From Sulfurovum sp. (GTDB lineage: Bacteria; Campylobacterota; Campylobacteria; Campylobacterales; Sulfurovaceae), in contig NZ_WGDD01000014.1 in NCBI RefSeq assembly GCF_015493435.1, positions 1 to 64,000 on the forward strand: a stretch of DNA of 64,000 bases, in the 5' to 3' direction. The notes beneath the pieces were generated by a model. The model worked only from the letters and a program-made list of their open reading frames with translations, did not search any database and was not told the origin of the DNA. Below, piece after piece: positions 822 to 15,774 of this stretch; within the stretch, counting starts at the first letter, position 1, and each line of letters begins with the position of its first letter. The position numbers and the translations under genes were made by a program.

Positions 822-1718
822 TTATTTTTCCTGCTCAGGGGTCTGGATAAAGACATCCAGCTGTTCTCCCACATAAAGAGGGAATGTTTTGGTTCTTTCG
901 GCTGCATAAATAACTTGCAGCACACGTGTATCGGTTCGCTCTGTACTGCGCCCTGTCAAGTTTGTTTTCGGCACGACATAAGGAATGGTATAGGCGTATT
1001 TCAAGCCGATATTTTTTTTAGTATTTCCGCGTAAGTATGCGACTGCTTTTGTTCCTGGTTTGAATTTTGAAATATCATACTCATTGATGCTGACACGTAC
1101 ATTGACCCGCTCACTCCCAATGAGAAGAGCATTTGAGCGGCTGTCAAAAAAATCTCCCCTGCTTATCTCAGATCTCAATACTATGCCGTCTATGGGACTG
1201 TACACCTTATATAGATTTGACTGTTCTTTCAGGGCAGCCAGTTTTGTTTTGGACACTTCCAGCAGCTCTTTTGCTTCATGAAAATGATCCTGTGCCTGCA
1301 TGTATTTTTCTTTCGTAACCATTTGAGGAGAGACATTTTTGAAATTTTCTATCAGCTCGAAGTGATGTTTTGCACTGATGAATGTTGCCTCAGCAGCTTT
1401 GATACCTGCCTGTGCGATCAGAATATTCGACTGCAAAAGGGTATCATCCATTTCAAAAAGCAGCATTCCTTTCTGTATTTTCTCCCCGCTTTGTACATAA
1501 ACCGCTTTGACAATACCGGAGAAAGAGGAACTTACCGCAATATTTTTGCTTTTTGCCTCTACGATCCCCGTACCTGCTATAAAAGAGTTAAAAGGCAGTT
1601 TCACTGAAGGGATGGCAACGGTACCGGATGATTTTAGCATATCATCGTAAAACATAGCAGCAATGCCGATACCTACACCGATAAGTGAGAATATAATCCA
1701 TATATAAAATTTTTTCAT
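822..1718 (-). CDS. HlyD/DevB-type periplasmic adaptor (membrane fusion protein) of the ABC exporter
   Basis: 298-residue periplasmic adaptor. It has one N-terminal membrane anchor (about residues 4-24), a lipoyl-like half-motif near 65-92 (V-Q-S-G-E-K-I-Q-K-G-M-L-L-F), a helical hairpin around 95-175 and a second half-motif after 'VYSPIDGIVLRSEISRGD'. The family bridges an inner-membrane transporter to an outer-membrane channel or accepts the cargo. The start ATG overlaps the ATPase stop codon (ATGA) and the stop abuts the permease ATG, so the three genes are translationally coupled. No TolC-like gene belongs to this operon; the TolC family gene at 9102-10304 could serve both systems, but that is inference. 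It is DevB-like rather than RND-like because of its ABC partners. Confidence 0.88.
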   Translation of the reverse strand: MKKFYIWIIFSLIGVGIGIAAMFYDDMLKSSGTVAIPSVKLPFNSFIAGTGIVEAKSKNIAVSSSFSGIVKAVYVQSGEKIQKGMLLFEMDDTLLQSNILIAQAGIKAAEATFISAKHHFELIENFKNVSPQMVTKEKYMQAQDHFHEAKELLEVSKTKLAALKEQSNLYKVYSPIDGIVLRSEISRGDFFDSRSNALLIGSERVNVRVSINEYDISKFKPGTKAVAYLRGNTKKNIGLKYAYTIPYVVPKTNLTGRSTERTDTRVLQVIYAAERTKTFPLYVGEQLDVFIQTPEQEK

Positions 1719-2422
1719 CTATTTTTTTCCACCTTGATGATTCTTCCATCTTCCATTTGTGCGATCCTGTCTGCATATTTATATACCCGTTCATCATGTG
1801 TCACGACGATCATGGTTACACCGTGTTCTTTGGTCAGTTTCTTTAAAAGTTCCATGACCATCTGTCCGGACTTGTGGTCCAGACTGCTTGTAGGTTCATC
1901 ACAGATCACCAGTCTGGGTGTATGTACCAGTGCCCTGGCTATGGCGACCTTCTGCTGCTGTCCGCCGCTCAGATTACCCGGAAGAACATGTTCTTTTGAT
2001 TCCAAATCCACCGCTTTTAACATTTTGTATGAACGGGAGAATGCCGTTGTTTTATTGGTACCGAAGATGGTAAGAGGCAGGGCTGTGTTCTCCGCAGCCG
2101 TGAGTGCAGGAATAAGATTGAATGCCTGAAATACAAAGCCGATCTCTTTGCCTCTAAAAGCAGTTTTTTCTGCATCGCTCATTGCAGAAAAATCGTGGCC
2201 CAGAACAATGCACCTGCCGCTGTCAAAACCAAGCAGGGCAGTAATTACCGATACAAAGGTCGTTTTGCCGCAGCCCGAAGGCCCCACCAGCATAAGCAGT
2301 TCATTTTCATAGACATCAAGACTTATACCCTGTAACGCTTTGACCTCTGTCTCGCCTGAATTATATGTTTTTACGATATCAGTACACTGTAGTGCAATGT
2401 TTCTGCTGTTGTCTGTTGTCAT
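1715..2422 (-). CDS. ABC transporter ATP-binding protein (MacB/LolD/DevA type)
   Basis: 235-residue ATPase that powers the exporter encoded with it. Walker A is GPSGCGKT near residues 47-54, the signature is LSGGQQQK near 150, and Walker B is LVICDEPTSSLD near 170, followed by a switch His (VVTHDE). The set matches the MacB/LolD/DevA family. An upstream in-frame TTG at 2428 could also be read as a start, but it lies directly against the -10 box. The ATG at 2422 sits exactly 6 nt after TATAAT (2429-2434) with no Shine-Dalgarno, so the message is probably leaderless. Its promoter carries a TTTCAT-N5-TTTCAT box shared back-to-back with the divergent DedA-PAP2-LssY gene. First gene of the operon. 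Confidence 0.92.
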   Translation of the reverse strand: MTTDNSRNIALQCTDIVKTYNSGETEVKALQGISLDVYENELLMLVGPSGCGKTTFVSVITALLGFDSGRCIVLGHDFSAMSDAEKTAFRGKEIGFVFQAFNLIPALTAAENTALPLTIFGTNKTTAFSRSYKMLKAVDLESKEHVLPGNLSGGQQQKVAIARALVHTPRLVICDEPTSSLDHKSGQMVMELLKKLTKEHGVTMIVVTHDERVYKYADRIAQMEDGRIIKVEKNR

Positions 2423-2428
2423 AGGCAA

Positions 2429-2499
2429 ATTATAGTCGATGAAAATGAAATGAGGATGAAAATTTCTTTCATCCTCATTTCATTTTGAATGTTTATAAT
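2429..2499. promoter_or_regulatory. Divergent promoter with perfect 20-bp inverted repeat of TTTCAT boxes
   Basis: The arms at 2442-2461 and 2467-2486 are perfect reverse complements of each other, separated by 5 bp (ATTTC). Each arm holds TTTCAT-CCTCA-TTTCAT reading outwards (boxes 2445-2461 minus strand, 2467-2483 plus strand). Exactly 10 bp after each box lies TATAAT: 2429-2434 for the ABC exporter (minus) and 2494-2499 for the DedA fusion (plus). No TTGACA is present; the distal TTTCAT occupies the -35 zone. This fits an activator of the OmpR/PhoB family. It is not a terminator because both flanking genes point away from it. Confidence 0.82.
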
Positions 2500-2527
2500 G
2501 AACTAAAATTCACCAAACGGATCATAT

Positions 2528-4555
2528 ATGTCAGATATACTGAATCATTCTATTTTGCCCTTTATTGAGCATTTCAAACATTATGTCGTATGGATCGCCT
2601 TCTTTGCCGCCTTTGGCGAGACGCTGATCGGTTTAGGTTTTTTGCTGCCCGGTTCAACCTTCCTGCTTCTTCTTGGTGTTCTGGCGGGGCAGGGATATTT
2701 TGATATTGGTATATTGCTCTTATTTGCAGTAACGGGAGCTTATATAGGGGATATCACCAATTATTATATCGGTAAACACTACGGTTCTTCTTTACTGGAT
2801 AAAACATGGATCCCTTTCTCCGGTGAGCAGCTCAGGAGAGCACAGCAATTTTTAAATACACACGGTGCAAAATCTGTTTTTCTGGCTCGTTTTCTGCCGG
2901 CGCTGAAAGAGAGTGTTCCTTTTCTTGCAGGTTCTTTGAAAATGCAACGGAGCAAGTTCCTTTTTTGGGATTTTTTTGGTGCTATCGGCTGGAGTTTGGA
3001 GTTTATAGGTGTAGGCTATCTCTTTTCGGCATCACTTTCCCTTGCACAGATATGGATGAGCCGTACGCTTACTGTCCTTGTGATACTCATTTTCCTTTTT
3101 GTACTTCTCTATCTTTTGAAACAATTTATTGTAAACAATGCACACTCAGCCAAAATAGTACTTCTTTCACTCTGGAATTCTTTTTTGCAAAATCCTTTTG
3201 TATCAGGGGGGATAAAATCACATCCAAAATCCACAGCATTCATCAAAAGCCGTTTTGACCAAACAACATTTTATGGATTGCCGCTTACATTGCTTAGCGT
3301 TGCATTTATATCGGTTTTAGCACTTTTTGCCGGTATTGTCGAAGATTTTCTCAGCCGGGATCCGATCGTTTACGTTGATCATATTGTTGCAAACCTCATG
3401 GTAGGATGGAGAACGCCGGAAATGATCACCTTCTTTACCTGGGTCACCTATCTTGGTACGAAAGAGATTGTGCTGCTTTTCCTTGCATCGGCTACTGTTA
3501 TTTTGTTTTTGTATAAAAAATATAATGATCTTATTGCACTCTATTTTTCTTTCGCGGGGTCAGCTGTTTTTCTCTACCTGGGTAAACTCGCTTTTCACCG
3601 CCCGCGGCCGGAGACAGCACTCTATTTTGAGTCTTCCTTCTCGTTTCCAAGCGGGCATGCCACAATTGCTGTAGCATTTTACGGATTTTTAGGCTATTTG
3701 CTAATACGCCATGTCGATAAATTTAAAAACAAGATCAATCTCTTTTTTGTTACGACAATACTGGTTCTGCTGATAGGCTTAAGCCGTATTTATCTCGGAG
3801 AGCACTATCTCAGCGATGTTTATAGCGGATACTTAATAGGAACGTTATGGGTAATCACGGCTATTGCCTTGCTGCAGTGGCTCTCATGTAAAAAGTTTTT
3901 TACTCAGGGAAAGCCATTTGGTAAAGCAAAAACAATCAGTATTACGCTGATTTTCATTACCGCAGGTTTGTATGTTCTTTTTGGTTTTAAATTTCATTAT
4001 ACACTTGCCACCCCTCCCAAAATAAATACAGTCAAACTTGACAGGCTCAAAATGTTATTTGACAAAAGTTCCAATAGATTTGCCAAAAATATCTTCGGAC
4101 TTGACGCGCAGCCGATCAATATTGTCCTGACGTCTGATCAAAAGGAAGATATCTGTAGTGTTTTAAAAAAAGCCGGATGGAAAGATGGAAGTGAGATACA
4201 AAGTCTCAATATTCCTCTCTTTTGGCAGGCAAAAGAACCGATCTGCAGTTTGAATATGAAAAGAAAAAAAAGATTTTATCTGCTAAAAATCTGGCGTACC
4301 GATGTATCCTGTAAAGGCAAAAAAGTATACGTTGCCGGTGCGAATGCTATCACCGGAAAACAGTGGGGTATCATACCGGTTTTCATCACAGATATGGATG
4401 AAGCAAAAGCATTCGTTGTGAAAGAGCTCCATGAGAATACAAATATAAAAAGAGATAAACCTATTCAGGTAAATGCACCTTTTGTCAAAGAGAATCTTTT
4501 TGGGAACTCCTATTTTAGCGATGGGAAGATAGAGGTATTGTCTTTGGAAAAATAA
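2528..4555 (+). CDS. DedA - PAP2 phosphatase - LssY_C triple-domain membrane protein
   Basis: 675-residue inner-membrane fusion. Residues about 15-195 are a DedA/SNARE-associated domain (lipid scramblase/flippase family), with the pattern F-L-A-R-F-L-P-A near 118-125. Residues about 240-455 are a PAP2 acid phosphatase with a complete active site: KLAFHRPRP at 353-361, PSGH at 374-377 and SRIYLGEHYLSD at 419-430. Residues about 500-675 match the LssY C-terminal domain. PAP2 enzymes dephosphorylate undecaprenyl pyrophosphate, phosphatidate or lipid A phosphates at the periplasmic face. Joining a DedA carrier to a phosphatase suggests coupled flipping and dephosphorylation of an undecaprenyl or phospholipid substrate, which is inference. 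Promoter: TTTCAT box 2467-2483 with TATAAT at 2494-2499. It belongs to the same putative regulon as the RND pump and the two-component systems. Confidence 0.9.
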   Translation: MSDILNHSILPFIEHFKHYVVWIAFFAAFGETLIGLGFLLPGSTFLLLLGVLAGQGYFDIGILLLFAVTGAYIGDITNYYIGKHYGSSLLDKTWIPFSGEQLRRAQQFLNTHGAKSVFLARFLPALKESVPFLAGSLKMQRSKFLFWDFFGAIGWSLEFIGVGYLFSASLSLAQIWMSRTLTVLVILIFLFVLLYLLKQFIVNNAHSAKIVLLSLWNSFLQNPFVSGGIKSHPKSTAFIKSRFDQTTFYGLPLTLLSVAFISVLALFAGIVEDFLSRDPIVYVDHIVANLMVGWRTPEMITFFTWVTYLGTKEIVLLFLASATVILFLYKKYNDLIALYFSFAGSAVFLYLGKLAFHRPRPETALYFESSFSFPSGHATIAVAFYGFLGYLLIRHVDKFKNKINLFFVTTILVLLIGLSRIYLGEHYLSDVYSGYLIGTLWVITAIALLQWLSCKKFFTQGKPFGKAKTISITLIFITAGLYVLFGFKFHYTLATPPKINTVKLDRLKMLFDKSSNRFAKNIFGLDAQPINIVLTSDQKEDICSVLKKAGWKDGSEIQSLNIPLFWQAKEPICSLNMKRKKRFYLLKIWRTDVSCKGKKVYVAGANAITGKQWGIIPVFITDMDEAKAFVVKELHENTNIKRDKPIQVNAPFVKENLFGNSYFSDGKIEVLSLEK

Positions 4556-4579
4556 GAGAAGATCATTTTTTCCTATGGA

Positions 4580-4900
4580 TCAATCGTCGTCTTTACTTTT
4601 GAGTACTTTCGCTGTAACCGGATCGACAAGTACTTCCATCTTTTTACCGTTTCGGGCAATAATTTTGATCTTATAGACGAGATAGTCATCTTCTTCATCG
4701 AGTTTTGCCTTTACAACCTGGCCGTTAACACTTTTTTTTGCCGCTTCGATCGCCTGGATCATGGAGACAGTCACTTTGTGCATGGCTTTCTTTTCAGATT
4801 CGAAAAGTCCTACTTTGATAGAACTTATAATATCGTCAGCCATAGCCGAAGAGCTGAAAAGCACACCAGAAACAAGGCTGGATAAGAGAATTTTTTTCAT
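4580..4900 (-). CDS. Periplasmic PepSY-domain protein
   Basis: 106 residues. A Sec signal peptide (about residues 1-21, ending ...SSSAMA-DD) precedes one PepSY domain with the typical run: M-I-Q-A-I-E-A-A-K near 47-55, G-Q-V-V-K-A-K-L near 60-67, Y-L-V-Y-K-I-K-I near 73-80, and a closing V-D-P-V-T-A-K-V-L. Small exported PepSY proteins are often found beside two-component systems and are thought to modulate sensors or proteases. The start is supported by an AAGGAATAAAC ribosome-binding stretch. It is transcribed alone from its own TTTCAT-box promoter, downstream of the RND operon. It is a shorter relative of the PepSY protein at 12344-12754. Confidence 0.88.
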   Translation of the reverse strand: MKKILLSSLVSGVLFSSSAMADDIISSIKVGLFESEKKAMHKVTVSMIQAIEAAKKSVNGQVVKAKLDEEDDYLVYKIKIIARNGKKMEVLVDPVTAKVLKSKDDD

Positions 4901-4929
4901 GTTTATTCCTTCGTTTGATTTATACCTAT

Positions 4930-4962
4930 ACTATACAATTTTAAGATGAAACAAAAATGAAA
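4930..4962 (-). promoter_or_regulatory. TTTCAT-box promoter of the PepSY gene
   Basis: On the minus strand TTTCAT-TTTTG-TTTCAT (4946-4962) is followed by 10 bp and TATAGT (4930-4935). Spacing is identical to the eight other promoters of this set. Confidence 0.8.
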
Positions 4963-4988
4963 GTATACATAGTAACATATTGTAGAAA

Positions 4989-7900
4989 CTATAGTTTGGT
5001 TCTATAGAGATAAAGCCAATAAAAAAACAGCGGTATGACAAACAGATTTACCACAATAGCAAAAAAGAGTCCGCCCATAATGGCGATCGCCATATCCTGT
5101 ATGATCTGTGTGCCGCTGCCTATTGCCAGTGCGACGGGCAGCAGGGCAAAGGCGTTGGAGAACATGGTCATCAGTACCGGACGAATCCTAACAGCGATGG
5201 CATCTACTATTCGTTTTTTCTCGTCGGTATCACCGGCTATATTCATGTGATAGAAATCGTAGATGAGAACATTGTTGTTGATGACGATGCTGAGGACTAT
5301 CAGCATACCCATAAAAGCAGTGATATCCAGAGGCTTTCCGGTAAGCTTCAGTGCCAGGAAAACACCCGTCAATGTGACCAAAAGTGCTATGAGTATAGAA
5401 AATGAGGTGCGAAGTGAACTGAAGTTCAAAAGCAATCCTGTAAAAATGATGATAATCGCAAACAAAATAACATATCCCATCTCTTTGAAAGATTGTTGCT
5501 GCTCTTTGTAAAAACCGCTGATATCGGTGGTGATATCGCTTGGCAGTTTGGCAGAAGAAAGGGTTTCTTTGATGTGTCCAACTACAGCTGACATATCATT
5601 GCCCATAAATCGGATACCCAGGATACAAACCGGAGAGAGGTTGTAGTGTGTAATTTCAGCTACTTTATTTTTATAGGTGATCGTGGCAACATAATTCAAG
5701 GGTATATTTTTGCCCAGTTTGGGTGAAAATACAAGCAACTCTTTTTGTAGATAGGCAATAGGATCAACCCTCGGACGACTCATAAGGACACGAATATTGA
5801 TAAGCTTCTCCCCTTGTGCCACAGAGGCCACAACCCTGCCGTAATACATAGCCCTAATCTGTGTTGCCAGTGTCTGCTCATTAATACCATATAATGCGAG
5901 GGCATTATCTTTAAGGCGTACATTAATGGCAGGGGAAGCATAGGAAGTAAGGACATTTACTTCTTCTACATCTTTGATAGGTTTCAGCTTCTCTTTAAGG
6001 CGATACCCCTGTTGTATCAGCTCGTCAGGATTGGGGCCGAAAAGATGTACCGATATAGGTGCATCTGCTCCCATAATGTCTCCAAGTCTGTCTTCAAGGA
6101 CTTGAGAAAGCCCCAGTTCCTCCAGATTGGGTACGGCATGCTCTATCTCATGACGCAGTTGTTCGATGACTTCAAAGGCACTTCTGCTGCGCTTTTTTTT
6201 GAGTGTCACCAAGAAATCTCCCTGATTGGGTTGTGTAGAGACTTGCCCCAGAGAGGTTCCGATACGGAGTGTCCATCCTTTGACCTCAGGCGTATTATCG
6301 AGTATTTTGCCCACAGTCATAAACTCATCTTTGCTCTGTCCCAGTGAAGTACCCGGAGGCAGTACCATGTCCACAACAACATTTCCTTCATCCCATTTGG
6401 GCAGGAAAGTAGAGGGGATAGTTTTGTAAAGGAAAAAGCTCAATACGAAGGCAGAGATGAGGATAGGTATGGATATCCAGGCATGGTTCATCATCTTTGT
6501 CAAAAAGCGTTTGTATCGCTCTACCATAGGCTCCATAAAGTCTTTTTTTGTTTTTGGTTCATTGGGAAGTGCAACAAAAGCAATGATGGGAGTCAGGAAA
6601 ATAGCGATCACCTGAGAGATCACATAGGTGATCACCAACACAAAAGCCAGCTGTTTAAAAAAGAGTCCTACCACACCGCTCACCAGCAACAGCGGTACAA
6701 ATATCAATGTAGCAAGCAGTGTTGCCACTGCCATGATCGGCAAAATCTCTTTCGCACCGCGGATCACGGCTTCCTGTTTTGAAACTCCTTTTTTAAAGTG
6801 CCTTTCAATGTTTTCGATCACAATGATCATCTGATCTATCAAACCGCCAAGTGCTGCAGCCATACCGCCGAGTGAAAAGATATTGAAATCAATACCTCCA
6901 AGCTTCATCCCCACCATGGTAATAAGAAATGTAACAGGAATAACAAGCAGAGAGACAAGTGAAAGTTTTACCTGTCTTAAAAAGAAAAACACCACCAAAA
7001 CAGCGATGATACCACCGAGTATGATGGCATCCCTTACACTGTTGACCGCCTCTTTGATAAAATCGGTACCATCATAGTAATTGACGATCTTGATATCTTC
7101 TTTTTGAAGTGCAGGTGCCAGCTCTTTTAATTTTTCATCAAACTTTTTTGCGACATCTATGGCATTGGCATTGGGCTGTCTTAAAAGATTGAAAACCACT
7201 GAATTTTTAAATCCTGTGGCGGCACTGGTGGCCTTGACGGGATTTGTTCTCTCTATAAGCAGTGCAATATCACTCAACTTCACAGATTTTTGATTTGGCA
7301 GTGCAATATCAAGATCCAGTAATTTAGAAGCATCTTCGCTTTTTTGATAAAGTGAAAGAACATACTGTTTATGATAATCCTCAATAAGCTCCATAAACTC
7401 TATGAGATTTTGCGCTTTGAGCTGGTCGATGATCGTTTGCACATCCAGTCCGTATGCTCTTACCTTTTTTGCATCGAGCAGGAGTTTGTATTCACTCCAT
7501 GCCGGTGCTTTTATCTGTATATCATAGACTCCCGGGATAGAGAGCAGTACCGGTTTGAGTTCATAGTAAAGTTTCTCTGTCAATTTTGCACGTGATAATG
7601 AATTGGAACCGATAGCATAGATAGAGACAGGGTAGATACTCGGTGTCGCCTGACGTATGGTTATGGAGGCAGAAGCAGGAATACGGTTTTTGATATCTGC
7701 TATACGGGCCTGAACCAGCTGGTATGCAAGATAAGGGTCGATATTCCAGTTGAAATAGAGACTGATATCGGTAGAACCGATAGAGGTGGAAGAGACTATC
7801 TTCTCGACATCCTGTACTGTTTTAAGCGCTTCTTCGCTGGGCTTGGTCACGGAGAAAAGCATCTGTTTGATAGGCGCATAGCCATTTTCAATACTCACTT

Positions 7901-8048
7901 CGATGCGTGGGAAAAAGACATTCGGGAAAACACCTTTGGGGATAGAAAAGGAGAGTTTGTAGCCGACAGCAGCCAGCAAAAAAACAACGATAAAAATCGC
8001 CAGTTTATTTTTCAGGATATAGAGGAAAAAACCTTTTTGCTCTTTCAT
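4989..8048 (-). CDS. RND family efflux transporter, inner-membrane pump
   Basis: 1019-residue RND pump, normal length for AcrB/CzcA proteins. A first membrane helix (about 12-33) is followed by a large periplasmic domain, a helix bundle (about 335-500), a second periplasmic domain and a C-terminal bundle (about 850-1015). The TM4 relay stretch is G-G-L-I-D-Q-M-I-I-V-I-E-N (401-413): only one acidic residue, where AcrB has two adjacent Asp. The matching TM10 region reads S-I-V-I-N-N-N-V-L-I, without the AcrB Lys. This is closer to the heavy-metal (CzcA-like) relay than to the drug (HAE1) type, but the substrate cannot be assigned. It is the last gene of a tolC-adaptor-pump operon, overlaps the adaptor by 4 nt, and is driven from the TTTCAT promoter at 10332-10364. 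Confidence 0.92.
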   Translation of the reverse strand: MKEQKGFFLYILKNKLAIFIVVFLLAAVGYKLSFSIPKGVFPNVFFPRIEVSIENGYAPIKQMLFSVTKPSEEALKTVQDVEKIVSSTSIGSTDISLYFNWNIDPYLAYQLVQARIADIKNRIPASASITIRQATPSIYPVSIYAIGSNSLSRAKLTEKLYYELKPVLLSIPGVYDIQIKAPAWSEYKLLLDAKKVRAYGLDVQTIIDQLKAQNLIEFMELIEDYHKQYVLSLYQKSEDASKLLDLDIALPNQKSVKLSDIALLIERTNPVKATSAATGFKNSVVFNLLRQPNANAIDVAKKFDEKLKELAPALQKEDIKIVNYYDGTDFIKEAVNSVRDAIILGGIIAVLVVFFFLRQVKLSLVSLLVIPVTFLITMVGMKLGGIDFNIFSLGGMAAALGGLIDQMIIVIENIERHFKKGVSKQEAVIRGAKEILPIMAVATLLATLIFVPLLLVSGVVGLFFKQLAFVLVITYVISQVIAIFLTPIIAFVALPNEPKTKKDFMEPMVERYKRFLTKMMNHAWISIPILISAFVLSFFLYKTIPSTFLPKWDEGNVVVDMVLPPGTSLGQSKDEFMTVGKILDNTPEVKGWTLRIGTSLGQVSTQPNQGDFLVTLKKKRSRSAFEVIEQLRHEIEHAVPNLEELGLSQVLEDRLGDIMGADAPISVHLFGPNPDELIQQGYRLKEKLKPIKDVEEVNVLTSYASPAINVRLKDNALALYGINEQTLATQIRAMYYGRVVASVAQGEKLINIRVLMSRPRVDPIAYLQKELLVFSPKLGKNIPLNYVATITYKNKVAEITHYNLSPVCILGIRFMGNDMSAVVGHIKETLSSAKLPSDITTDISGFYKEQQQSFKEMGYVILFAIIIIFTGLLLNFSSLRTSFSILIALLVTLTGVFLALKLTGKPLDITAFMGMLIVLSIVINNNVLIYDFYHMNIAGDTDEKKRIVDAIAVRIRPVLMTMFSNAFALLPVALAIGSGTQIIQDMAIAIMGGLFFAIVVNLFVIPLFFYWLYLYRTKL

Positions 8049-9109
8049 TTAACAACCTCTACGGTGGCCCCGTCATGCAGCATATAGGCATTTTTCAAAG
8101 CGATTTGATCTTTGGCTTTTAGATGGTCTGTGACCAACACCTTGTCAATCATATCTTTTTGCACGGTGACAAAGTGAAGTGTCGCTTTGCTCTTTTTTAT
8201 GAGAAATATAGCCGGGCGGTTTTGTACCAGGACAATCGCCTCTTTGGGAATGATCCAGCCTTTGGTCTGTGCCGTTTCTATCTGAGCTTCTATACGCAAC
8301 CCAACCGGCAAAGTATGAGAAGGCAAGGCAATCACATTGAGCAGATTGTCACTGCTTTGAGGAAGTATGGCTATAATTTTTGCATCAGCAACAACCCCTT
8401 GCTCTTTTATTTTTACGTTTTGACCGATATGCAGCTCTTTTGCAAAGAGTGGAGAGACAAAAAGCCGTATCTGCACATGGGCATCTATGATCCTGCAAAG
8501 TGTTTGTCCGTAAGAGACATAACTCCCGTCAGGAAGCAGCGAATCTACATATCCGGCTACCGGTGCTTTCACAGTGGAGGAGCTATTTTGAAGTTCCAAT
8601 TTATTCAATGCTATTTTGGCTTGATTGAGGGCAATGCTCCTCTCTTCCAAAAGATTTTGCTGATCCAAAAGTTGGTTTTTTGAGAGGATGCCGAGGTTCA
8701 CCATCTCTTTGGCACTTTGAAGTTTACTTTTTTGTGCAGAAACCTGTTTTTGCAGAAGTTTGATATTTGACTTTAGCATGGTTATGGTGTTTTTTTGTCG
8801 AGCGTTACTGACTGTTGCAACAACATCATCTTTTTGAATCAGTTGGCCATTAAAACTTTTTACATGCAGAATGCCCTCTGATAGTGTATTGATAGTAATC
8901 TTTTGATGGGGCTCTGTAATGCCGGTTACAGTATGACTCATAGGCATACTTGCGATTTTTGGGGAGACAATACTGACTTTAACATGTCGTTCCTGTTTGG
9001 GAACCTGAAGTGCTTTAGCTGTTTCTTCATCATTATCTTCAAAGAAAGAGAAAAGAGAAGAACTAAAAAGAAGTAAAAGGCTGAAGATAAGGAGAGATTG
9101 CCTATTCAT
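8045..9109 (-). CDS. RND periplasmic adaptor (membrane fusion protein)
   Basis: 354 residues. An N-terminal hydrophobic segment (about 5-22) acts as signal or anchor. A lipoyl half-motif lies near 80-105 (S-F-N-G-Q-L-I-Q-K-D-D-V-V), the helical hairpin spans about 110-175, and the second half-motif follows at 'VKAPVAGYVDSLLPDGSYV'. Beta-barrel and membrane-proximal domains follow. It joins the RND pump to the TolC-family channel. It overlaps both neighbours (8 nt with the channel gene, 4 nt with the pump), so it is translationally coupled within the operon. Confidence 0.9.
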   Translation of the reverse strand: MNRQSLLIFSLLLLFSSSLFSFFEDNDEETAKALQVPKQERHVKVSIVSPKIASMPMSHTVTGITEPHQKITINTLSEGILHVKSFNGQLIQKDDVVATVSNARQKNTITMLKSNIKLLQKQVSAQKSKLQSAKEMVNLGILSKNQLLDQQNLLEERSIALNQAKIALNKLELQNSSSTVKAPVAGYVDSLLPDGSYVSYGQTLCRIIDAHVQIRLFVSPLFAKELHIGQNVKIKEQGVVADAKIIAILPQSSDNLLNVIALPSHTLPVGLRIEAQIETAQTKGWIIPKEAIVLVQNRPAIFLIKKSKATLHFVTVQKDMIDKVLVTDHLKAKDQIALKNAYMLHDGATVEVVK

Positions 9110-10304
9110 AAATGATTTTCTCAGAAAGCATATTCAAGATAACAGCATTCTGTATCATCTTGTATTTGGCACTGATCTGTGCTTCATGTGTGGCAAGGCT
9201 CTCTTTTATGGTCTGTAGGTAAGTGTTTAGGTCAACATAGTGTTTCAGGTAGGCTATTCTCATATTTTTTAACGTAACATTGCTGTGTTTCAGGGGTTGG
9301 CGGAGTGAAGCAAATAATTTTTTGGCTGTTTGATATTGGGTTTTCCATGCAATGTACTGTGCTTTTCTTTCTATCTCCAATGCTTTTTTTTGACTCTTTA
9401 TCCTCAACGCATCTACTTTTTGTCTCTCTATATCATGAGTCATCCCACCATCAAAGTGCATACTCAACCCCATGCTCAAAGTATAGTTGTCACCATTGGC
9501 AGTAGGGTCATTGTTGTATTGCTGATTGGCACCGATGATGGCATCTGGCATCCAGCTTTGTTCGATCTGCTTTATTTTTTGTGAGGATTGTTTTGCTCTG
9601 TTGTCATTGAGTTTGAGTTGCGGACTGTGGGCAAGAAAGTGACGAAGATCGCTATGCAGCCCAGTCACAGAGAGGTGGGGAATAGCATGATGCGGGCTGT
9701 AAAGTTTCAGTTGCGCTTTCATCATCGTGACTATTTGCTTTTCCTGGTCTCTTTGTGCCTCTATCAGTGCCATAATATTTTCAAGTCTTGTGAGTTCAAG
9801 CATGGGTACAGTACCCGACTTGACGGCAGATCTGACAGCTTCAATCAAAGTTGCCTGTGTGTGGTACAGCTTTTGGTAGAGTTTCAGTTTCTCTTCACTG
9901 GCTTTACAGGAGGTGACCATATCGACCAGGGAAAGAAAAAGTTTTTCTTTCTGGACTTGAAGCAAAAGCCCGTCCTCTTTCATTTGAAGCTGTATAAGAC
10001 GGATATCTTCTATATTTTTTCCAAAAAGATCGATCGTATCTGTGATACCGATATCGGTATTGTTGAAGTGATGTGCCAAAAGTTTTGCATTGGTTGCACC
10101 GTACATGATGCCTGCATCAAGATTGAGATACCGTTGCTTCTTTTTGGCTTCTATAAGTAACGCTCTTGATTTTTTCTCTAATGTGTACGTGCTTTGGTAA
10201 GAAAGTGTTTTTACTGCCTCTTTGTAGAACGGGATCATACCGCTGCCGGCATTTGCCAAGGTTAGGAAAATAGTCATCAATAAAAAAACAGTAATTTTTT
10301 GCAT
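9102..10304 (-). CDS. TolC family outer-membrane channel protein
   Basis: 400 residues with a signal peptide (about 1-19, ending ...TLANAG). The rest is mostly long helices with two repeats typical of the outer-membrane efflux protein family, including a conserved pattern near 280-300 (N-Y-T-L-S-M-G-L-S-M-H-F-D-G-G) where the second half begins. It forms the trimeric exit duct. It is the first gene of the RND operon; the ATG at 10304 has a strong AAAGGAG site 6 nt upstream. The preceding gap to the histidine kinase gene is only 83 bp and is filled by a TTTCAT-box promoter, which separates this operon from the regulator operon. Confidence 0.9.
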   Translation of the reverse strand: MQKITVFLLMTIFLTLANAGSGMIPFYKEAVKTLSYQSTYTLEKKSRALLIEAKKKQRYLNLDAGIMYGATNAKLLAHHFNNTDIGITDTIDLFGKNIEDIRLIQLQMKEDGLLLQVQKEKLFLSLVDMVTSCKASEEKLKLYQKLYHTQATLIEAVRSAVKSGTVPMLELTRLENIMALIEAQRDQEKQIVTMMKAQLKLYSPHHAIPHLSVTGLHSDLRHFLAHSPQLKLNDNRAKQSSQKIKQIEQSWMPDAIIGANQQYNNDPTANGDNYTLSMGLSMHFDGGMTHDIERQKVDALRIKSQKKALEIERKAQYIAWKTQYQTAKKLFASLRQPLKHSNVTLKNMRIAYLKHYVDLNTYLQTIKESLATHEAQISAKYKMIQNAVILNMLSEKIIYE

Positions 10305-10331
10305 GAATGCTCCTTTTGCATATTTTACTTT

Positions 10332-10364
10332 ATTATGAATAGTGAAAATGAAATGAAAATGAAA
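10332..10364 (-). promoter_or_regulatory. TTTCAT-box promoter of the RND efflux operon
   Basis: Minus strand TTTCAT-TTTCA-TTTCAT (10348-10364), 10 bp, then CATAAT (10332-10337). It sits between the sensor kinase stop and the channel gene start and links the pump to the adjacent two-component system. Confidence 0.78.
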
Positions 10365-10387
10365 TCCCGTACAGGCAATGGCATAAA

Positions 10388-11698
10388 TTACAAAATCACT
10401 TCTACAGTCGTACCAATGTCAAGTTTGGATGTGATGTACAATTCACCCTTATGAAGTTCAATACTGTTCTTAACAATAGAAAGACCAAGCCCAAATCCTT
10501 CTGTTTCTTTATTACGTGATTCATCTACTCTGTAAAAACGGTCTGTGATTTTAGACAAGTTTTTCTGTGCTATGCCTATACCTTCATCTTGGATAATAAA
10601 ATGAATCATCTTCCTTTCCTGCCAAAGTGATATATGAATATTTTTTCCTGGGGATGTATATTTGACAGCATTGTCTATAAGATTTGAAAAAATAGCATTG
10701 ATCAATTCAGGGCTTGCATTTTTTGTTGCTTTTTCAAACCTGATGATTTCCAGGTCAATGTTCTTTGCCAGGGCTTTGGGAAGATACTGATCAACGGTTC
10801 CCAGTAAAATAGCATTTAGGTCGCAGGGGACAAAACTTTGCATTATATTTTCTTTCGAATATTTACTGAGTTGGAGCAACTCTTCTACAATTTTTTGGAT
10901 CTTGTGTGATTCGGACTGTATCATGTTCAAACTCTCTTTATAGTATGCTCTGTCCCGATCTTTTTTGAGAGCCAATTCAATTTTTCCATTGATCACAGTC
11001 AGTGGTGTTTTCAACTCATGTGACACATCACTGTTAAACCTGTCCAGTTTTTCAACACCGTCTTTGAGTCTATCCACCATAGTGTTAAAGGTGTCTATCA
11101 GATTACGAATCTCATCTTCAGATTCCGTAAGCGGTATTTTATTTTGAAAATTGTGAATTGAGATATCTTTTGCCACAGTACTGATGTTCTGTATGGGTTT
11201 TAGAATCTTATTGACCATTTTATTTGCCAATAGCATGAAAAGTAAAAAAAGTATGGATTCCAGGGCTATGATGATAGTAATAACATTTTCAAACCCTTCG
11301 TCAATATCATCTTTAAAAACTGCGATGGCACCGTCAAAAGGTTTTTTGAATTTCAATACATAAAGTGCTGTTTGACTCCCTTTTCTCTCTACAGTAGAAA
11401 AAGGTTTTTTTTTATGAATTATTTTTTCAATACCCTTAAAGTCAAATTCTTTTGTTTTGTATATTGTCTGACTATTTTTCACAATTGCAAAAGGAAACTT
11501 GGCGTGTATGTCGCTAAACTTTGTAGTACTTAAATGCTCTTTGATGTAAAAAGACTGGGAATAAAGACCATTTTTTGTCGTCTCAATCATGCTCTGGTTT
11601 AAAAAATAATAAAATATAAACCCAAAAGCCACAAGCATAAAAAAGGAGATAGTGCCAAACGATAGCAGAACTTTTGTTTTTAAACTTTTATGCTTCAA
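10388..11698 (-). CDS. Sensor histidine kinase of envelope two-component system 1
   Basis: 436 residues. Two membrane helices (about 12-33 and 138-158) enclose a periplasmic sensor loop of roughly 100 residues. Then come a HAMP linker (about 160-215), the dimerisation domain with FNSDVSHELKTPLTV (phospho-acceptor His227), and the ATPase domain with an N-box (N-L-I-D-N-A-V-K-Y-T), D-E-G-I-G-I and a G-F-G-L-G-L-S-I-V box. It phosphorylates the regulator encoded just upstream. The start codon is TTG at 11698, overlapping the regulator's end by 11 nt; alignment with the paralogous kinase at 15761, which also starts with TTG in the same position, supports this start. Operon order is PepSY, regulator, kinase. 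Confidence 0.93.
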   Translation of the reverse strand: MKHKSLKTKVLLSFGTISFFMLVAFGFIFYYFLNQSMIETTKNGLYSQSFYIKEHLSTTKFSDIHAKFPFAIVKNSQTIYKTKEFDFKGIEKIIHKKKPFSTVERKGSQTALYVLKFKKPFDGAIAVFKDDIDEGFENVITIIIALESILFLLFMLLANKMVNKILKPIQNISTVAKDISIHNFQNKIPLTESEDEIRNLIDTFNTMVDRLKDGVEKLDRFNSDVSHELKTPLTVINGKIELALKKDRDRAYYKESLNMIQSESHKIQKIVEELLQLSKYSKENIMQSFVPCDLNAILLGTVDQYLPKALAKNIDLEIIRFEKATKNASPELINAIFSNLIDNAVKYTSPGKNIHISLWQERKMIHFIIQDEGIGIAQKNLSKITDRFYRVDESRNKETEGFGLGLSIVKNSIELHKGELYITSKLDIGTTVEVIL

Positions 11699-12344
11699 TT
11701 TTATATCCCAGCCCTTTAAAATTTTTAATGAAATCCTTACCCAGTTTTTTTCGCATATGGTAAATCGTTACCTCGATAACATTGCTTTGTTTGAAATCTT
11801 CATTTGTCCACAATTGCTCTTCTATCATAAACTTTGAGACATACGAATTTTTTTGCTTTACAAGAAACATCAGAAGCTCATACTCTTTTGCAGTAAGAGG
11901 AACTTTTTCATCGTTCTTTTTGACGGTCTTGTCATTGATGTCGATACTAATATTTTTTATGGTAATGGTATTTTTCCCGTTCGAGACTATCCTTCGGTAA
12001 AGTGCTTCCACTCTGGCCTGTAATTCTTCAAGACTGAATGGTTTGGCAAGGTAGTCGTCTGCACCACTGTTGAGTCCCGTAACCTTGTCTGCTATCTCAC
12101 CTTTTGCAGTCAGCATAAGAACAGGCGTATTGATATCCTGCTTTCTTAAAGAATGCAAAACATCCAGCCCACTCATTTTTGGCAGCATCCAGTCAAGAAT
12201 AATCACATCATAATGGTTCATTGTTGCCAAATATTCGCCATCTTCGCCGTCCTTGGCAACATCAACAATATGATTTTCCTCAACAAAGGCACTTTGCAGA
12301 AGCGAGAGGATGTTTTTATCATCCTCTACGATCAAGATCTTCAT
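11688..12344 (-). CDS. OmpR/PhoB-family response regulator 1
   Basis: 218 residues. The receiver domain (1-115) has the acidic pair near residues 8-9, phospho-acceptor Asp51 in I-I-L-D-W-M-L-P and a conserved Lys in the D-D-Y-L-A-K-P-F motif. A winged-helix DNA-binding domain follows (about 125-218). The predicted recognition helix region is SNVIEVTIYHMRKKLG, almost the same as SNVIQVTIYHLRKKIG in regulator 2, so both probably read the same DNA box. The ATG overlaps the stop of the PepSY gene (TAATG). Its promoter carries the TTTCAT box it is likely to bind, which implies autoregulation. Confidence 0.94.
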   Translation of the reverse strand: MKILIVEDDKNILSLLQSAFVEENHIVDVAKDGEDGEYLATMNHYDVIILDWMLPKMSGLDVLHSLRKQDINTPVLMLTAKGEIADKVTGLNSGADDYLAKPFSLEELQARVEALYRRIVSNGKNTITIKNISIDINDKTVKKNDEKVPLTAKEYELLMFLVKQKNSYVSKFMIEEQLWTNEDFKQSNVIEVTIYHMRKKLGKDFIKNFKGLGYKIEA

Positions 12345-12754
12345 TAATCCTCTTTTTCTTCATCTTTTTCATTGTCGTTTTCATCTTCATGGTCTGGTTT
12401 GTCCACGCTTGAAGTTAAGACCTGAGCAGTTCCGGCATCCACAACAACATTGAAAGTTTTACCATCCTTCTGGAAAACTTCAGCTTCATAAACCAGGTTA
12501 CCCTCTTCATTTTCAAGTTCAACCTTTGTGATTTTGCCTGACAACTTTGCTTCAATCGCAGCAAGAACTTCATTTATGCCAACTTTTGCAGCTTTTATCT
12601 CTTCAGTTTCACTGGCTGTTTCGCTGATCTGTACCGAACTTTGTATCTCTATATCTTTATCATTGTCATCATTGGTCTCAATGTCCCCAGCCATGGCAAC
12701 ACCACTTGCTAAACTGAATGCAAGAAAACTTTTTACTATATATGATTGTTTCAT
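12344..12754 (-). CDS. Periplasmic PepSY-domain protein leading the two-component operon
   Basis: 136 residues: a signal peptide (about 1-22, ...GVAMAG), an acidic linker, one PepSY domain (about 52-113; I-N-E-V-L-A-A-I-E-A-K, then G-K-I-T-K-V-E-L-E, L-V-Y-E-A-E-V-F and V-D-A-G-T-A-Q-V-L), and a very acidic tail of mixed Asp/Glu/Lys that could bind cations. It lies first in the operon and overlaps the regulator gene. This suggests a periplasmic signal partner for the kinase, which is inference from position. Its promoter nearly matches that of the shorter PepSY gene at 4580-4900. Confidence 0.88.
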   Translation of the reverse strand: MKQSYIVKSFLAFSLASGVAMAGDIETNDDNDKDIEIQSSVQISETASETEEIKAAKVGINEVLAAIEAKLSGKITKVELENEEGNLVYEAEVFQKDGKTFNVVVDAGTAQVLTSSVDKPDHEDENDNEKDEEKED

Positions 12755-12805
12755 ATGTGATCCTTTAATGTTTATTTATCAACCAATTGCTTGATCGATA
12801 AAATA

Positions 12806-12838
12806 AGTATAGAAGTCTCAGATGAAACAAAAATGAAT
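12806..12838 (-). promoter_or_regulatory. TTTCAT-box promoter of the PepSY-regulator-kinase operon
   Basis: Minus strand ATTCAT-TTTTG-TTTCAT (12822-12838; first base differs from consensus), 10 bp, then TATACT (12806-12811). It implies feedback control of system 1. Confidence 0.78.
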
Positions 12839-12843
12839 AAGGT

Positions 12844-13788
12844 TTATTTTTTATTTCCAAAATAAGGTCTTGAATAGGGCTGAACATACCCTTGTGTATC
12901 ATAATCATATCCAAACGGAATATAGGTATATGGAAGTTGGTAATAGTTGAAAATTTTGCTCGTCTTTTCCCAGCCTATGGCTTTTAGTACCTCGGATGAA
13001 TTTATCCCGACACCAACATAAACTACACGTTCTTTGTCCAAATAATCTTCATGTGCCTGATATCCTCTTGTGTAATATCCGAGCTGCAGTTCAAGATACT
13101 TCATAGGTGTATCTTCCATACTTTTAAATCCACTGAATTTCAGTGCCATTAAATATTTCATTGAATTGTATTGGGTAAAAAAGTCAACATTGGAATTGAA
13201 ATCAGGTATATATTCCAGACGAAAATCAAGTTTTGATTTTACTGTCGGATATTTTTCCCGGACATAATAGAAAGCTGCACCCACAGTATTCATGATGAGA
13301 TCCTCATAGGAAAATCCCTGTGATGCACTGAACGAATCTCCAACCTCCATCAGTGCCTGGAAGGTCCAGGATGTAAGGGGACCGTATAGCAGGGCTTCAT
13401 CTTCATGCATACCCCAGTATTCATAAAGGGAGGAGAAGCCAAGTGACCATAAATAGGTGGAGTACATATGGCCAAACTTATCGGCACCGCCATACTTTGT
13501 ATCCTTCCCAAACCACCCTTCATTTTTAACAACAGGTTTGATGGTAAAGTAATCCCAAAAAGCCGTCCCCCATGCGGCAACAAGACCAGCACCAATCAGG
13601 TTAGTGTAGAGTACCCGGGTTCTCAATTCTTCATCGGTCAGCGGCTTTTCCGGCTTAAAGAGGATAGCTTCAGTCCATGTTCTTTCCTGTGTTCCTGCCG
13701 CGGTATCTTCTCCTGCTTTTGAATTTGGTATATGCCCACCGGCTATTAAGCTTGCAGATACTACCGGGATCAAAATAAGTTTCTTCAT
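12844..13788 (-). CDS. DUF2279-family exported protein
   Basis: 314 residues with an N-terminal signal sequence (about 1-25) but no lipobox Cys. It resembles the DUF2279 family of predicted periplasmic or outer-membrane-associated proteins: a hydrophobic G-A-G-L-V-A-A-W-G stretch near 70, the K-F-G-H-M-Y-S-T-Y motif near 104-112, and a G-P-L-T-S-W-T-F-Q-A-L-M-E-V-G-D stretch near 136-151. The family function is unknown. The ATG is preceded by GGAGG. It has its own TTTCAT promoter and lies beside the broken PAP2 gene in the same orientation. Confidence 0.8.
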   Translation of the reverse strand: MKKLILIPVVSASLIAGGHIPNSKAGEDTAAGTQERTWTEAILFKPEKPLTDEELRTRVLYTNLIGAGLVAAWGTAFWDYFTIKPVVKNEGWFGKDTKYGGADKFGHMYSTYLWSLGFSSLYEYWGMHEDEALLYGPLTSWTFQALMEVGDSFSASQGFSYEDLIMNTVGAAFYYVREKYPTVKSKLDFRLEYIPDFNSNVDFFTQYNSMKYLMALKFSGFKSMEDTPMKYLELQLGYYTRGYQAHEDYLDKERVVYVGVGINSSEVLKAIGWEKTSKIFNYYQLPYTYIPFGYDYDTQGYVQPYSRPYFGNKK

Positions 13789-13816
13789 TTATATTATCCT
13801 CCAAAAAATTATCGAA

Positions 13817-13849
13817 AGCATACAAAATGAAAATGAAACAAAAATGAAA
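13817..13849 (-). promoter_or_regulatory. TTTCAT-box promoter of the DUF2279 gene
   Basis: Minus strand TTTCAT-TTTTG-TTTCAT (13833-13849), 10 bp, then TATGCT (13817-13822). A further TTTCAT lies inside the 10-bp spacer. Confidence 0.78.
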
Positions 13850-13851
13850 AA

Positions 13852-14238
13852 CTATGCTTTACCACTTGTAATTAAACTGTATACCTTTGTAGTCAGTGCC
13901 AACCTCAGGTGTAATGTCGAGGTTTTTATACGGGCTGGTGAAAAACCAGCTCCGGAGAATGCACTTGAGGTATGTCCGGAAGGGAAGGAATCTGTATTGT
14001 CGCTGTCTGGTCTCTTTTCTCGCACGGTGTACTTCAACGCATAGGTTGCCGCAAGCGTTGTGCCGTATGATTTGTAGAATTGATATTCTCCTTCTTCATC
14101 ATCAAGATAAAGTGTCGCTCCATAAGCACCTACCGGTATAGCCACCGATAATATATCTCCTATTCTTTCTGTATTGCTTTTTGCATACATTGGGTTTGCA
14201 AGTATCAATATCGGTAATGCTGTAAATATTTTTTTCAC
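13852..14238 (-). pseudogene. PAP2-family phosphatase with internal deletion
   Basis: The N-terminal part is normal: GTG start at 14238 with GGAGG upstream, signal peptide (VKKIFTALPILILANPMYA), the KYTVREKRP motif and SFPSGHTSSAFSGA. Just after this, where the third catalytic motif (SR-x5-H-x3-D) should follow, the frame jumps to an unrelated ending. In another frame, 13859-13944 encodes FFTSPYKNLDITPEVGTDYK followed by GIQFNYKW and a stop, which looks like the proper C-terminus of such proteins. About 60 residues including the catalytic His/Asp therefore appear deleted and the frame is shifted. The visible product would be 128 residues and inactive. Its promoter (TTTCAT box) is still intact. 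A GCTGGT-GAAAA-ACCAGC hairpin lies at the junction. Confidence 0.75.
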
Positions 14239-14265
14239 CCTGTCCTCCAAATTTTGCATTGGAGT

Positions 14266-14338
14266 ACTTTATGGTATGAAAATGAAATAAAAATGAAAAT
14301 TTCATTTTCATTTTTATTTCATTTTCGTTGATTATTAT
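14266..14338. promoter_or_regulatory. Divergent promoter with perfect 22-bp inverted repeat of TTTCAT boxes
   Basis: The arms at 14278-14299 and 14305-14326 are perfect reverse complements with a 5-bp spacer, the same design as at 2442-2486. Box 14282-14298 (minus) is followed after 10 bp by TAAAGT (14266-14271) for the PAP2 remnant. Box 14306-14322 (plus) is followed after 10 bp by TATTAT (14333-14338) for the methyltransferase-like gene. Confidence 0.82.
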
Positions 14339-14409
14339 TCCGAAAAGTACGAAAACCAAAGTACCGATAAAGGTGCACTGGCGGAATTTCACATTCATGA
14401 AGGAAAAAA

Positions 14410-15018
14410 ATGAAATCAAAATTTGAAAAATCACGGATACTGATATCCAGAATTATTGTTGTTGCAATATTGGTCTTTTTTATAGTAACAGGAAGTTACT
14501 GGGAAGAAGATCATGGAATGATGTCTTATGTATTGTTTTGCATAGGTGTAATTTTTGTAGGCATTGCTTCATTGGGAAGAATGTGGTGTTCAGTATATAT
14601 CGCTGGCTATAAAGACAATAAACTGATTACAAAGGGACCTTATTCACTCTCGAGAAATCCTTTGTATTTTTTTAGTATGTTAGGTGTGATTGGAATCGGA
14701 TTTGCTACGGAAACCTTTACTTTTCCTTTACTTCTTACAGCACTTTTTGCTATCTATTATCCTTTTGTGATTAAAAGTGAAGAAGCACGTCTCAGAACTT
14801 ATTTTGGGAATGACTTTGAAGATTATGTTAAAAAAGTTCCTGCTTTTTTCCCAAGATTTTCATCTTTTGATGAGCCGTCTCAGTATATGATGAATCCTGC
14901 TGTATATAGAAATCATATTTTTAGCGCATTGTGGTTCATTTGGATAGTTGGAATATTTAAAGTCGTTGAAGGTTTGAAAGAACTTGGATTTTTTGGTCAT
15001 TTATGGATAATTTATTAG
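14410..15018 (+). CDS. Isoprenylcysteine carboxyl methyltransferase-like membrane protein
   Basis: 202 residues with about four or five membrane helices. The SAM-binding C-terminal half has G-P-Y-S-L-S-R-N-P-L-Y (about 77-87) and later the E-E-A-R-L-R-T-Y-F-G region (about 125-134), the hallmark of the ICMT/PEMT superfamily. Bacterial members methylate small lipids or unknown membrane substrates, and the true substrate here is unknown. Start ATG with AAGGAA 6 nt upstream. Its promoter is shared with the PAP2 remnant through a bidirectional TTTCAT operator, so a role in envelope lipid modification is plausible (inference). Confidence 0.82.
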   Translation: MKSKFEKSRILISRIIVVAILVFFIVTGSYWEEDHGMMSYVLFCIGVIFVGIASLGRMWCSVYIAGYKDNKLITKGPYSLSRNPLYFFSMLGVIGIGFATETFTFPLLLTALFAIYYPFVIKSEEARLRTYFGNDFEDYVKKVPAFFPRFSSFDEPSQYMMNPAVYRNHIFSALWFIWIVGIFKVVEGLKELGFFGHLWIIY

Positions 15019-15075
15019 CCAACCTGTAGAGAACCTCTCATATAAAAATTTCGGAATAGGGTGCAGTCAATTGCT

Positions 15076-15108
15076 CTTCATCCCCATTTCATTTATACAT
15101 TATATAAT
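15076..15108 (+). promoter_or_regulatory. TTTCAT-box promoter of two-component system 2
   Basis: CTTCAT-CCCCA-TTTCAT (15076-15092), 10 bp, then TATAAT (15103-15108). The ATG follows 6 nt after the -10, so the message is likely leaderless. Confidence 0.76.
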
Positions 15109-15114
15109 TAAGTC

Positions 15115-15774
15115 ATGAAAATCTTAATTATAGAAGATGATGCACATATCCTTTCTCTTTTAACAAGAGGATTCAGCGAAGACGGGCATCTTGTAGAAAG
15201 CAGTATGGAGGGGGAAGAGGGGGAGTATATGGCAGGTGAAAATGCTTATGACATCATCGTACTCGACTGGATGCTGCCTGGAAAAAATGGACTGAAAATT
15301 TTACAAAGTTTACGTCAAAAGAAAATAAAAACCCCCATTATCATGCTTACAGCAAAAGGTGAAACAGAAGACAAAGTGGCTGCATTGAGAGCAGGTGCAG
15401 ATGATTATCTGGCTAAACCTTTTGCGTACGAAGAGCTGCTGGCAAGAATAGGGGCACTCTACAGAAGAAGTGCTATGGAAGGCAGCAATACTGTTGATAT
15501 TCAGAATATCACGCTTGATCTTGACGCAAAAACTGTCCAAAAAGAGGGTAAAGTACTTTTGTTAAGCCAAAAAGAATTTGAACTTTTACTCTTTCTTGTC
15601 AAACATAAAAACAGTATGGTAACCAATGCCATGATAGAAGAACAGCTTTGGAGCAATGAGACTGCTGTCAACAGCAATGTGATACAGGTAACGATCTATC
15701 ACTTGAGAAAAAAAATAGGGAAAGATCTGATCAGGAGTTTCAGGGGACTGGGGTACAAAATTGAAAGCCGATAG
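15115..15774 (+). CDS. OmpR/PhoB-family response regulator 2
   Basis: 219 residues, clearly paralogous to regulator 1: acidic residues at 8-9, phospho-acceptor Asp51 in I-V-L-D-W-M-L-P, D-D-Y-L-A-K-P-F, and a winged-helix domain ending in RGLGYKIESR. The recognition helix region SNVIQVTIYHLRKKIG differs from regulator 1 only conservatively. No Shine-Dalgarno is seen; TATAAT lies exactly 6 nt before the ATG, so translation is probably leaderless. It overlaps the kinase gene by 14 nt. Its own promoter has the shared TTTCAT box, which allows auto- and cross-regulation between the two systems. Confidence 0.94.
   Translation: MKILIIEDDAHILSLLTRGFSEDGHLVESSMEGEEGEYMAGENAYDIIVLDWMLPGKNGLKILQSLRQKKIKTPIIMLTAKGETEDKVAALRAGADDYLAKPFAYEELLARIGALYRRSAMEGSNTVDIQNITLDLDAKTVQKEGKVLLLSQKEFELLLFLVKHKNSMVTNAMIEEQLWSNETAVNSNVIQVTIYHLRKKIGKDLIRSFRGLGYKIESR

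Follow-up and report, generated by a model that had tools for sequence, protein, structure and literature searches.

A TTTCAT direct-repeat promoter module and its probable link to two sister two-component systems in Sulfurovum and its relatives

For the response regulator DccR of Campylobacter jejuni, Wosten reportedly gave in 2010 the consensus WTTCAC-N6-TTCACW. The PmrA site of A. baumannii is TTTAAG-N5-TTTAAG, located before pmrC (PMC10927774), and the boxes of PhoB and PhoP lie at a strictly set distance from the core promoter (PMC4415409, PMC10294691, PMC3335776). In Vibrio cholerae, DbfS is controlled by DbfQ, in a system that responds to membrane damage, polymyxin B and lipopolysaccharide defects (PMC12714742). 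Here we analyse a 64-kb stretch of Sulfurovum sp. DNA (contig NZ_WGDD01000014.1, positions 1 to 64,000; hereafter the window), in which nine genes or operons are preceded by a direct repeat, TTTCAT-N5-TTTCAT, at a fixed distance from a -10-like hexamer. A first-pass annotation had described these nine promoters as an undescribed lipid and envelope stress regulon under autoregulation.

Overall, the coordinates and strands of the nine repeats are all borne out, as are the quoted -10 hexamers (TATAAT, TATAAT, TATAGT, CATAAT, TATACT, TATGCT, TAAAGT, TATTAT and TATAAT, right in nine of nine) and the two one-base departures, ATTCAT at 12822 and CTTCAT at 15076. In all nine modules, the second TTTCAT is separated from the hexamer by exactly 10 bp, as had been claimed. 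With at most one mismatch allowed, the pattern TTTCAT-N5-TTTCAT-N10-TANNNT has nine matches in the 64 kb, exactly these nine, and 0 matches of the 33-bp pattern are found at the same tolerance in 100 dinucleotide shuffles of the window. The modules and the relatives in which they are kept (genomes are given as G and loci as L numbers) are as follows.

2429..2461, minus strand: module 1, TTTCAT.CCTCA.TTTCAT.N10.TATAAT, before the MacB-type ABC exporter operon (1715-2428, 822-1718, permease at the window edge); kept in L262 (G033), L260 (G014) and L135
2467..2499, plus strand: module 2, TTTCAT.CCTCA.TTTCAT.N10.TATAAT, before the DedA-PAP2-LssY fusion; kept in L260, L264, L284 and L285
4930..4962, minus strand: module 3, TTTCAT.TTTTG.TTTCAT.N10.TATAGT, before PepSY protein 1
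10332..10364, minus strand: module 4, TTTCAT.TTTCA.TTTCAT.N10.CATAAT, before the efflux operon of outer-membrane factor, membrane-fusion protein and RND pump; kept in L262, L287 and L288
12806..12838, minus strand: module 5, ATTCAT.TTTTG.TTTCAT.N10.TATACT, before PepSY2-RR1-HK1; kept in L113, L135, L269 and L298
13817..13849, minus strand: module 6, TTTCAT.TTTTG.TTTCAT.N10.TATGCT, before the DUF2279 protein; kept in L113
14266..14298, minus strand: module 7, TTTCAT.TTTTA.TTTCAT.N10.TAAAGT, before a PAP2 remnant; kept before longer PAP2-like genes in L113, L290 and L298
14306..14338, plus strand: module 8, TTTCAT.TTTTA.TTTCAT.N10.TATTAT, before the PEMT/ICMT-like methyltransferase; kept in L265 and L284
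15076..15108, plus strand: module 9, CTTCAT.CCCCA.TTTCAT.N10.TATAAT, before RR2-HK2

The promoters at 2445/2467 and at 14282/14306 form divergent, back-to-back pairs, and therefore the nine modules occupy seven intergenic regions. That none of the nine promoters has a TTGACA stands as an observation; its weight is small, as this bacterial group shows little conservation of -35 boxes (PMC7755780).

The scan of related genomes that the first-pass annotation had proposed shows that the module recurs across the order, with 89 distinct modules, all at non-coding sites, gathered from about 25 genomes. Their operator consensus (positions 1-22) is two 11-mers TTTCATYTTCR, the spacer being conserved too, and the fourth base of the half-site is C in 86-89 of the 89 sites. 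A TATAAT-like hexamer (at most one mismatch) is located at distance 10 in 63 of 121 repeats, while distance 4 accounts for 18 repeats, which fits a 6-bp register shift, and each remaining distance for at most 8. By sequence, a direct repeat at a fixed distance from the -10 box and in place of a -35 element would belong to the class-II (pho-box-like) layout. An A is found 7 nt past the -10 box in 65 of the 89 sites, at the expected start point, which would place the half-sites near -39/-34 and -28/-23, where they may substitute for the -35 element. In addition, the spacer is observed to mirror the half-site (TTTCAT TTTCA TTTCAT TTTCA), giving an alternating 6/5-bp sub-repeat with a second overlapping register, for example at 10342-10364 of the window.

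The candidate readers of the box are two response regulators (RR), each encoded with a sensor histidine kinase (HK).

10388..11698, minus strand: HK1, sensor histidine kinase (HAMP, HisKA, HATPase)
11688..12344, minus strand: RR1, OmpR-family response regulator (Pfam Response_reg, Trans_reg_C), wing residue Lys210
12344..12754, minus strand: PepSY protein 2, which leads the RR1-HK1 operon
15115..15774, plus strand: RR2, OmpR-family response regulator, wing residue Arg210, 60% identical to RR1
15761..17086, plus strand: HK2, sensor histidine kinase, 45% identical to HK1

Both regulators carry the PF00072 receiver and the PF00486 Trans_reg_C winged helix of the OmpR/PhoB family. The closest named relatives of RR2 are in Sulfurovum, Sulfurimonas and metagenome-assembled genomes of Campylobacteraceae, and the closest solved full-length relatives are DrrD and PmrA/BasR, the latter being, by similarity, the second-best PDB match (E 5e-42). 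Among the 299 genomes of the order, 25 hold a response regulator at E <= 1e-65 to RR2, and a perfect site is present in 20 of these 25 versus 47 of the 274 others (Fisher 2e-10, or 6.5e-10 without the window's genome, both ancestry-uncorrected). Against a reversed-pattern control, the site totals are 55 versus 1 in the 25 genomes and 54 versus 27 in the 274. The maximum-likelihood tree places RR1, RR2 and the box-associated regulators in one clade of 41, with support 100/99, apart from the other response regulators. In 19 of 39 clade members, the window's two being left out of the count, the box heads the regulator's own operon; outside the clade it is linked to a response regulator in 3 of 46, each time seven genes off, and scrambled boxes give 0-1 in the operon-head test. 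Because varied genes stand between the box and the RR-HK pair (PepSY, sulfatase, APP1, DedA-PAP2, PEMT-like, YceI, cytochrome c or none), the link is read as functional and probably not merely as one inherited promoter.

From this association and the apparent autoregulation, the operator may be assigned to the RR1/RR2 clade. The comparative evidence thus lends support to the earlier proposal that the 11-bp direct repeat in the -35 zone is read by OmpR/PhoB-type activators, and to autoregulation, as the box heads the RR operons in the window (modules 5 and 9) and in those clade members. For RR2 itself, the window has the box at 15076, but none of the four nearest RR2 orthologues keeps it whole; one of them, G014, retains one half-site with N10 and TATAAT. 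More distant regulators have the box directly upstream (L114, L115, L280 and L287). In two of these nearest orthologues, G319 and G014, a sulfatase gene stands ahead of the RR2 genes, and in G319 the box precedes that sulfatase gene.

The reading that we favour, with a probability of about 0.83, is that the modules serve as operators for class-II promoters, which RR1 and RR2 activate in a PmrA-like envelope programme. Two sister sensor systems would probably switch on genes of envelope remodelling and protection through the shared 33-base module. By analogy with PhoB, PhoP and PmrA, a phosphorylated head-to-tail dimer of the regulator would bind the two 11-bp units TTTCATYTTCR, replacing the -35 element; the bound dimer would contact sigma and hold RNA polymerase on the -10 box exactly 10 bp downstream, and transcription would start about 7 bp past that box. 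RR1-HK1, with PepSY2, and RR2-HK2 would jointly turn on a programme of lipid head-group transferases and phosphatases, undecaprenyl-phosphate recycling, efflux pumps, PepSY sensor partners and both two-component systems. The PepSY proteins encoded with the kinases probably tune the kinase, as DbfQ does DbfS, and envelope damage is our best guess at the signal in this organism.

Several points weigh against this reading. About half of the clade regulators are without a box at their own operon (partly in short contigs), and the complete genome G024 has a perfect module before a DedA-PAP2 gene (L264 8491) with no clade regulator, perhaps through recent loss of the regulator. The P values of the association are, moreover, uncorrected for shared ancestry. 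Single sites in genomes without a clade regulator mean little, because T-rich repeats arise by chance in AT-rich genomes.

Similar sites are also seen near regulators from outside the clade. In Arcobacteraceae, ATTCAT/TTTCAT sites lie seven genes from such a regulator, and in two genomes of a family other than the window's TTTCAT.CAAAT.TTTCAT.N10.TATTAT adjoins one (L258 6574 and L232 2170), possibly marking a separate regulator with a similar operator.

All targets, in the window and in the relatives, are assigned by promoter position only. Besides the two RR-HK systems, those of the window are as follows.

1715..2428, minus strand: ABC ATPase of the MacB-type exporter, followed by the membrane-fusion protein (822-1718)
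2528..4555, plus strand: DedA(VTT)-PAP2-LssY_C fusion (Pfam)
4580..4900, minus strand: PepSY protein 1 (Pfam)
4989..10304, minus strand: RND efflux operon, with outer-membrane factor (9102-10304), membrane-fusion protein (8045-9109) and RND pump (4989-8048)
12844..13788, minus strand: DUF2279 predicted periplasmic lipoprotein (Pfam)
13852..14259, minus strand: truncated PAP2 phosphatase gene, 135 aa (sub-threshold PAP2 match)
14410..15018, plus strand: PEMT/ICMT-like methyltransferase

The PAP2 remnant has 135 aa as against 174-181 aa in relatives, the longer ones being those of L113, L290 and L298, and its module is intact. In the relatives, targets of lipid and lipid-carrier chemistry include EptA with its N-terminal domain, undecaprenyl diphosphate synthase (UppS), the phosphatidate phosphatase APP1, PAP2 and DedA; EptA_B_N plus Sulfatase genes stand behind the module in L113 and L115. 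One target operon encodes a fatty-acid desaturase, LptF/G and PMT glycosyltransferases, and further targets are the MacB permease, EI24, DUF347, metallophosphatases and Haem_bd, the last by similarity to a window gene. That window gene (17204-17632, right after HK2) is itself without a module, and similar genes in L273 and L286 have one. Some DedA proteins are reportedly undecaprenyl-phosphate flippases or required for polymyxin resistance. As predicted from sequence, the targets share a theme of lipid A and lipid-carrier chemistry together with efflux. The target genes and the comparative evidence thus fit the lipid and envelope part of the earlier proposal, while its 'stress' part, like direct binding by the regulators, is still presumed.

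We then searched the whole genome (2.16 Mb, 61 contigs), which has eight perfect 33-bp matches: six in the window, one in contig 51 and one in contig 1. The contig 51 site, TTTCAT.TTTCC.TTTCAT.N10.TATACT, lies 52 bp upstream of a 642-aa sulfatase-family gene, which by its architecture would be LtaS/EptA-like, and it makes a convincing tenth member of the regulon, outside the window. For the genome, the likely targets number ten rather than nine. The contig 1 match (L062 3379-3411) contains TTTCATAGTGT three times in tandem, roughly 190 bp upstream of a gene that by eye is HipA-like; its spacer and setting are unlike those of the regulon, and the triple TTTCATAGTGT was set aside as seemingly unrelated. 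A one-mismatch match in contig 25 falls within a GroEL-like coding sequence and was likewise rejected. With up to two mismatches, the genome has 49 matches versus 30 for the control pattern.

In place of one regulon there may be two overlapping ones, divided between RR1 and RR2 by the spacer. RR1 would then read TTTCAT-TTTTG-TTTCAT (PepSY1, PepSY2-RR1-HK1, DUF2279) and RR2 TTTCAT-YYTCA-TTTCAT (ABC, DedA, RND, RR2-HK2, sulfatase), the spacer being read by wing residue 210 (Lys/Arg) and by the recognition-helix residue that precedes the invariant SN. This refinement of the favoured reading is tentative, its odds falling somewhat below even. Across the order, most spacers end in CA (44 sites) or TG (16 sites), and spacer bases 10 and 11 covary (1e-7). 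A spacer ending in TG occurs in 15 of 37 sites from genomes with an RR1-type regulator versus 0 of 49 from those without (Fisher 4e-7), and in the clade genomes TTTTG is found only beside RR1-type regulators, TTTCA beside both types. The RR1 type has an FKGLGY-like wing (Lys210) with Q/E-SN, and the RR2 type an FRGLGY-like wing (Arg210) with mostly N-SN. The exact TTTTG module is present in 5 of 299 genomes, four of them with a Lys-wing regulator (Fisher 2e-7); the fifth, G190, has a contig that breaks off within the PepSY operon. G026, with a Lys-wing regulator, has CTTCAT-TTTTG-CTTCAT-N10-TATACT. An Arg in the wing of M. tuberculosis PhoP inserts into the minor groove at the spacer, but in this one structure the wing confers limited sequence preference only (PMC4832192). 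Common descent of orthologous promoters could produce the same pattern (G085 and G160 are of one genus), the Lys-wing genomes G153 and G288 are without TTTTG modules, TTTTA sites match neither class, and G024 has a degenerate TTTTG repeat though no clade regulator. That the two final bases of the 5-bp spacer (TG for RR1, CA for RR2) form a two-base code insulating the paralogues after duplication is held as a shade less probable again, because orthologous inheritance accounts for part of the pattern.

Other readings would take the box away from RR1 and RR2. If it were the Campylobacter DccRS regulon in another genus, operator, regulator and targets should be the same or orthologous. In accordance with this, three genomes of Campylobacter type, a label inferred from gene content (G192, G232 and G242), have ATTCAC-N5-TTTCAC-N10-TATCAT, in G192 and G232 such a module precedes a PepSY_like gene (L254 6549-6581, L255 6083-6115) and a degenerate box precedes one RR gene, and MacABC belongs to the DccRS regulon (PMC11365321). 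However, the DccR-type regulator, recognised by box and context rather than by name, is only 32-33% identical to RR2 and falls in a separate supported clade, its half-site ends in C, not T, and the recognition helices differ (SELSLRAYVKNLRK in the Campylobacter-type regulator versus SNVIQVTIYHLRKK). On the tree and the helix, DccRS was rejected as the same system, and we regard this reading as very unlikely. Slightly more improbable is a third regulator or the Pho regulon, even though the pho boxes of E. coli consist of 11-bp repeats of TGTCAT type, of which some are nearly identical, e.g. TTTCATAAATCTGTCATA (PMC10294691). The occurrence of the sites follows that of the RR1/RR2 clade, whose operons they head, and phosphate-uptake genes are absent among the annotated targets of this genome and its relatives. 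The sequence GTTTCNAAAANGTTTC, which we take to be the PhosR box, is at control level in this genome; on its near absence and on the targets, the Pho regulon was rejected. Chance or low-complexity T-rich repeats without function are scarcely credible: TTTCAT is rich in A and T, and a perfect match occurs in roughly a sixth of the genomes lacking the regulator (47/274), but the fixed N10 spacing, the promoter position and the cross-family conservation speak against it, and the shuffles (0/100) and control-pattern counts (55 versus 1) led to its rejection.

With RR1 and RR2 as the probable readers, an order of sulfur-oxidising and related bacteria gains a defined envelope-defence regulon, whose consensus is precise enough for target prediction from sequence. 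Roles are suggested for DUF2279, DUF347, PepSY and PEMT/ICMT-like genes, and the spacer difference between RR1 and RR2 offers a natural case of how duplicated regulators sharing a half-site avoid cross-regulation.

It is of interest to compare the system with those already described. PhoB and PhoP boxes are alike in being built of 11-nt units in tandem, or of hexamers with 5 nt between them, located at or over -35, and unlike in half-site, targets and probable signal. DccRS shares the 11-bp direct repeat over the -35 zone, the N10 to the -10 box, and MacABC and periplasmic targets; it differs in the half-site, TTCAC versus TTCAT here, and in a regulator of another supported clade with a different recognition helix. 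In DbfQRS and BqsRS-type systems, a small periplasmic PepSY protein is encoded with the response regulator and kinase, and likewise PepSY2-RR1-HK1 and its relatives have a PepSY gene within four genes of the pair, a likeness seen in the gene arrangement. As for 'undescribed', the word suits the TTTCAT motif, of which no description in this group was found in the literature searched (most subscription journals lying outside its scope), but the layout is known from the PmrA box and, closer, from Campylobacter DccR. With PmrAB (BasRS) the likeness extends to a hexamer-N5-hexamer direct repeat before EptA/PmrC-type genes (L113, L115 and the sulfatase-family gene of the own genome, by promoter position only) and to an RR-HK pair behind a sulfatase-family gene in some relatives, as pmrAB stands behind pmrC. 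The differences are the half-site, which is TTTCAT and not of YTTAAK type, a distinct clade of this order, the PepSY, DUF2279, DUF347 and RND targets, and two paralogous systems in one genome. The regulon would add to a type already known, beyond which its spacer code could go, and by analogy it resembles in its working the PmrAB regulon of polymyxin defence in relatives of E. coli, with TTTCAT in place of the PmrA half-site.

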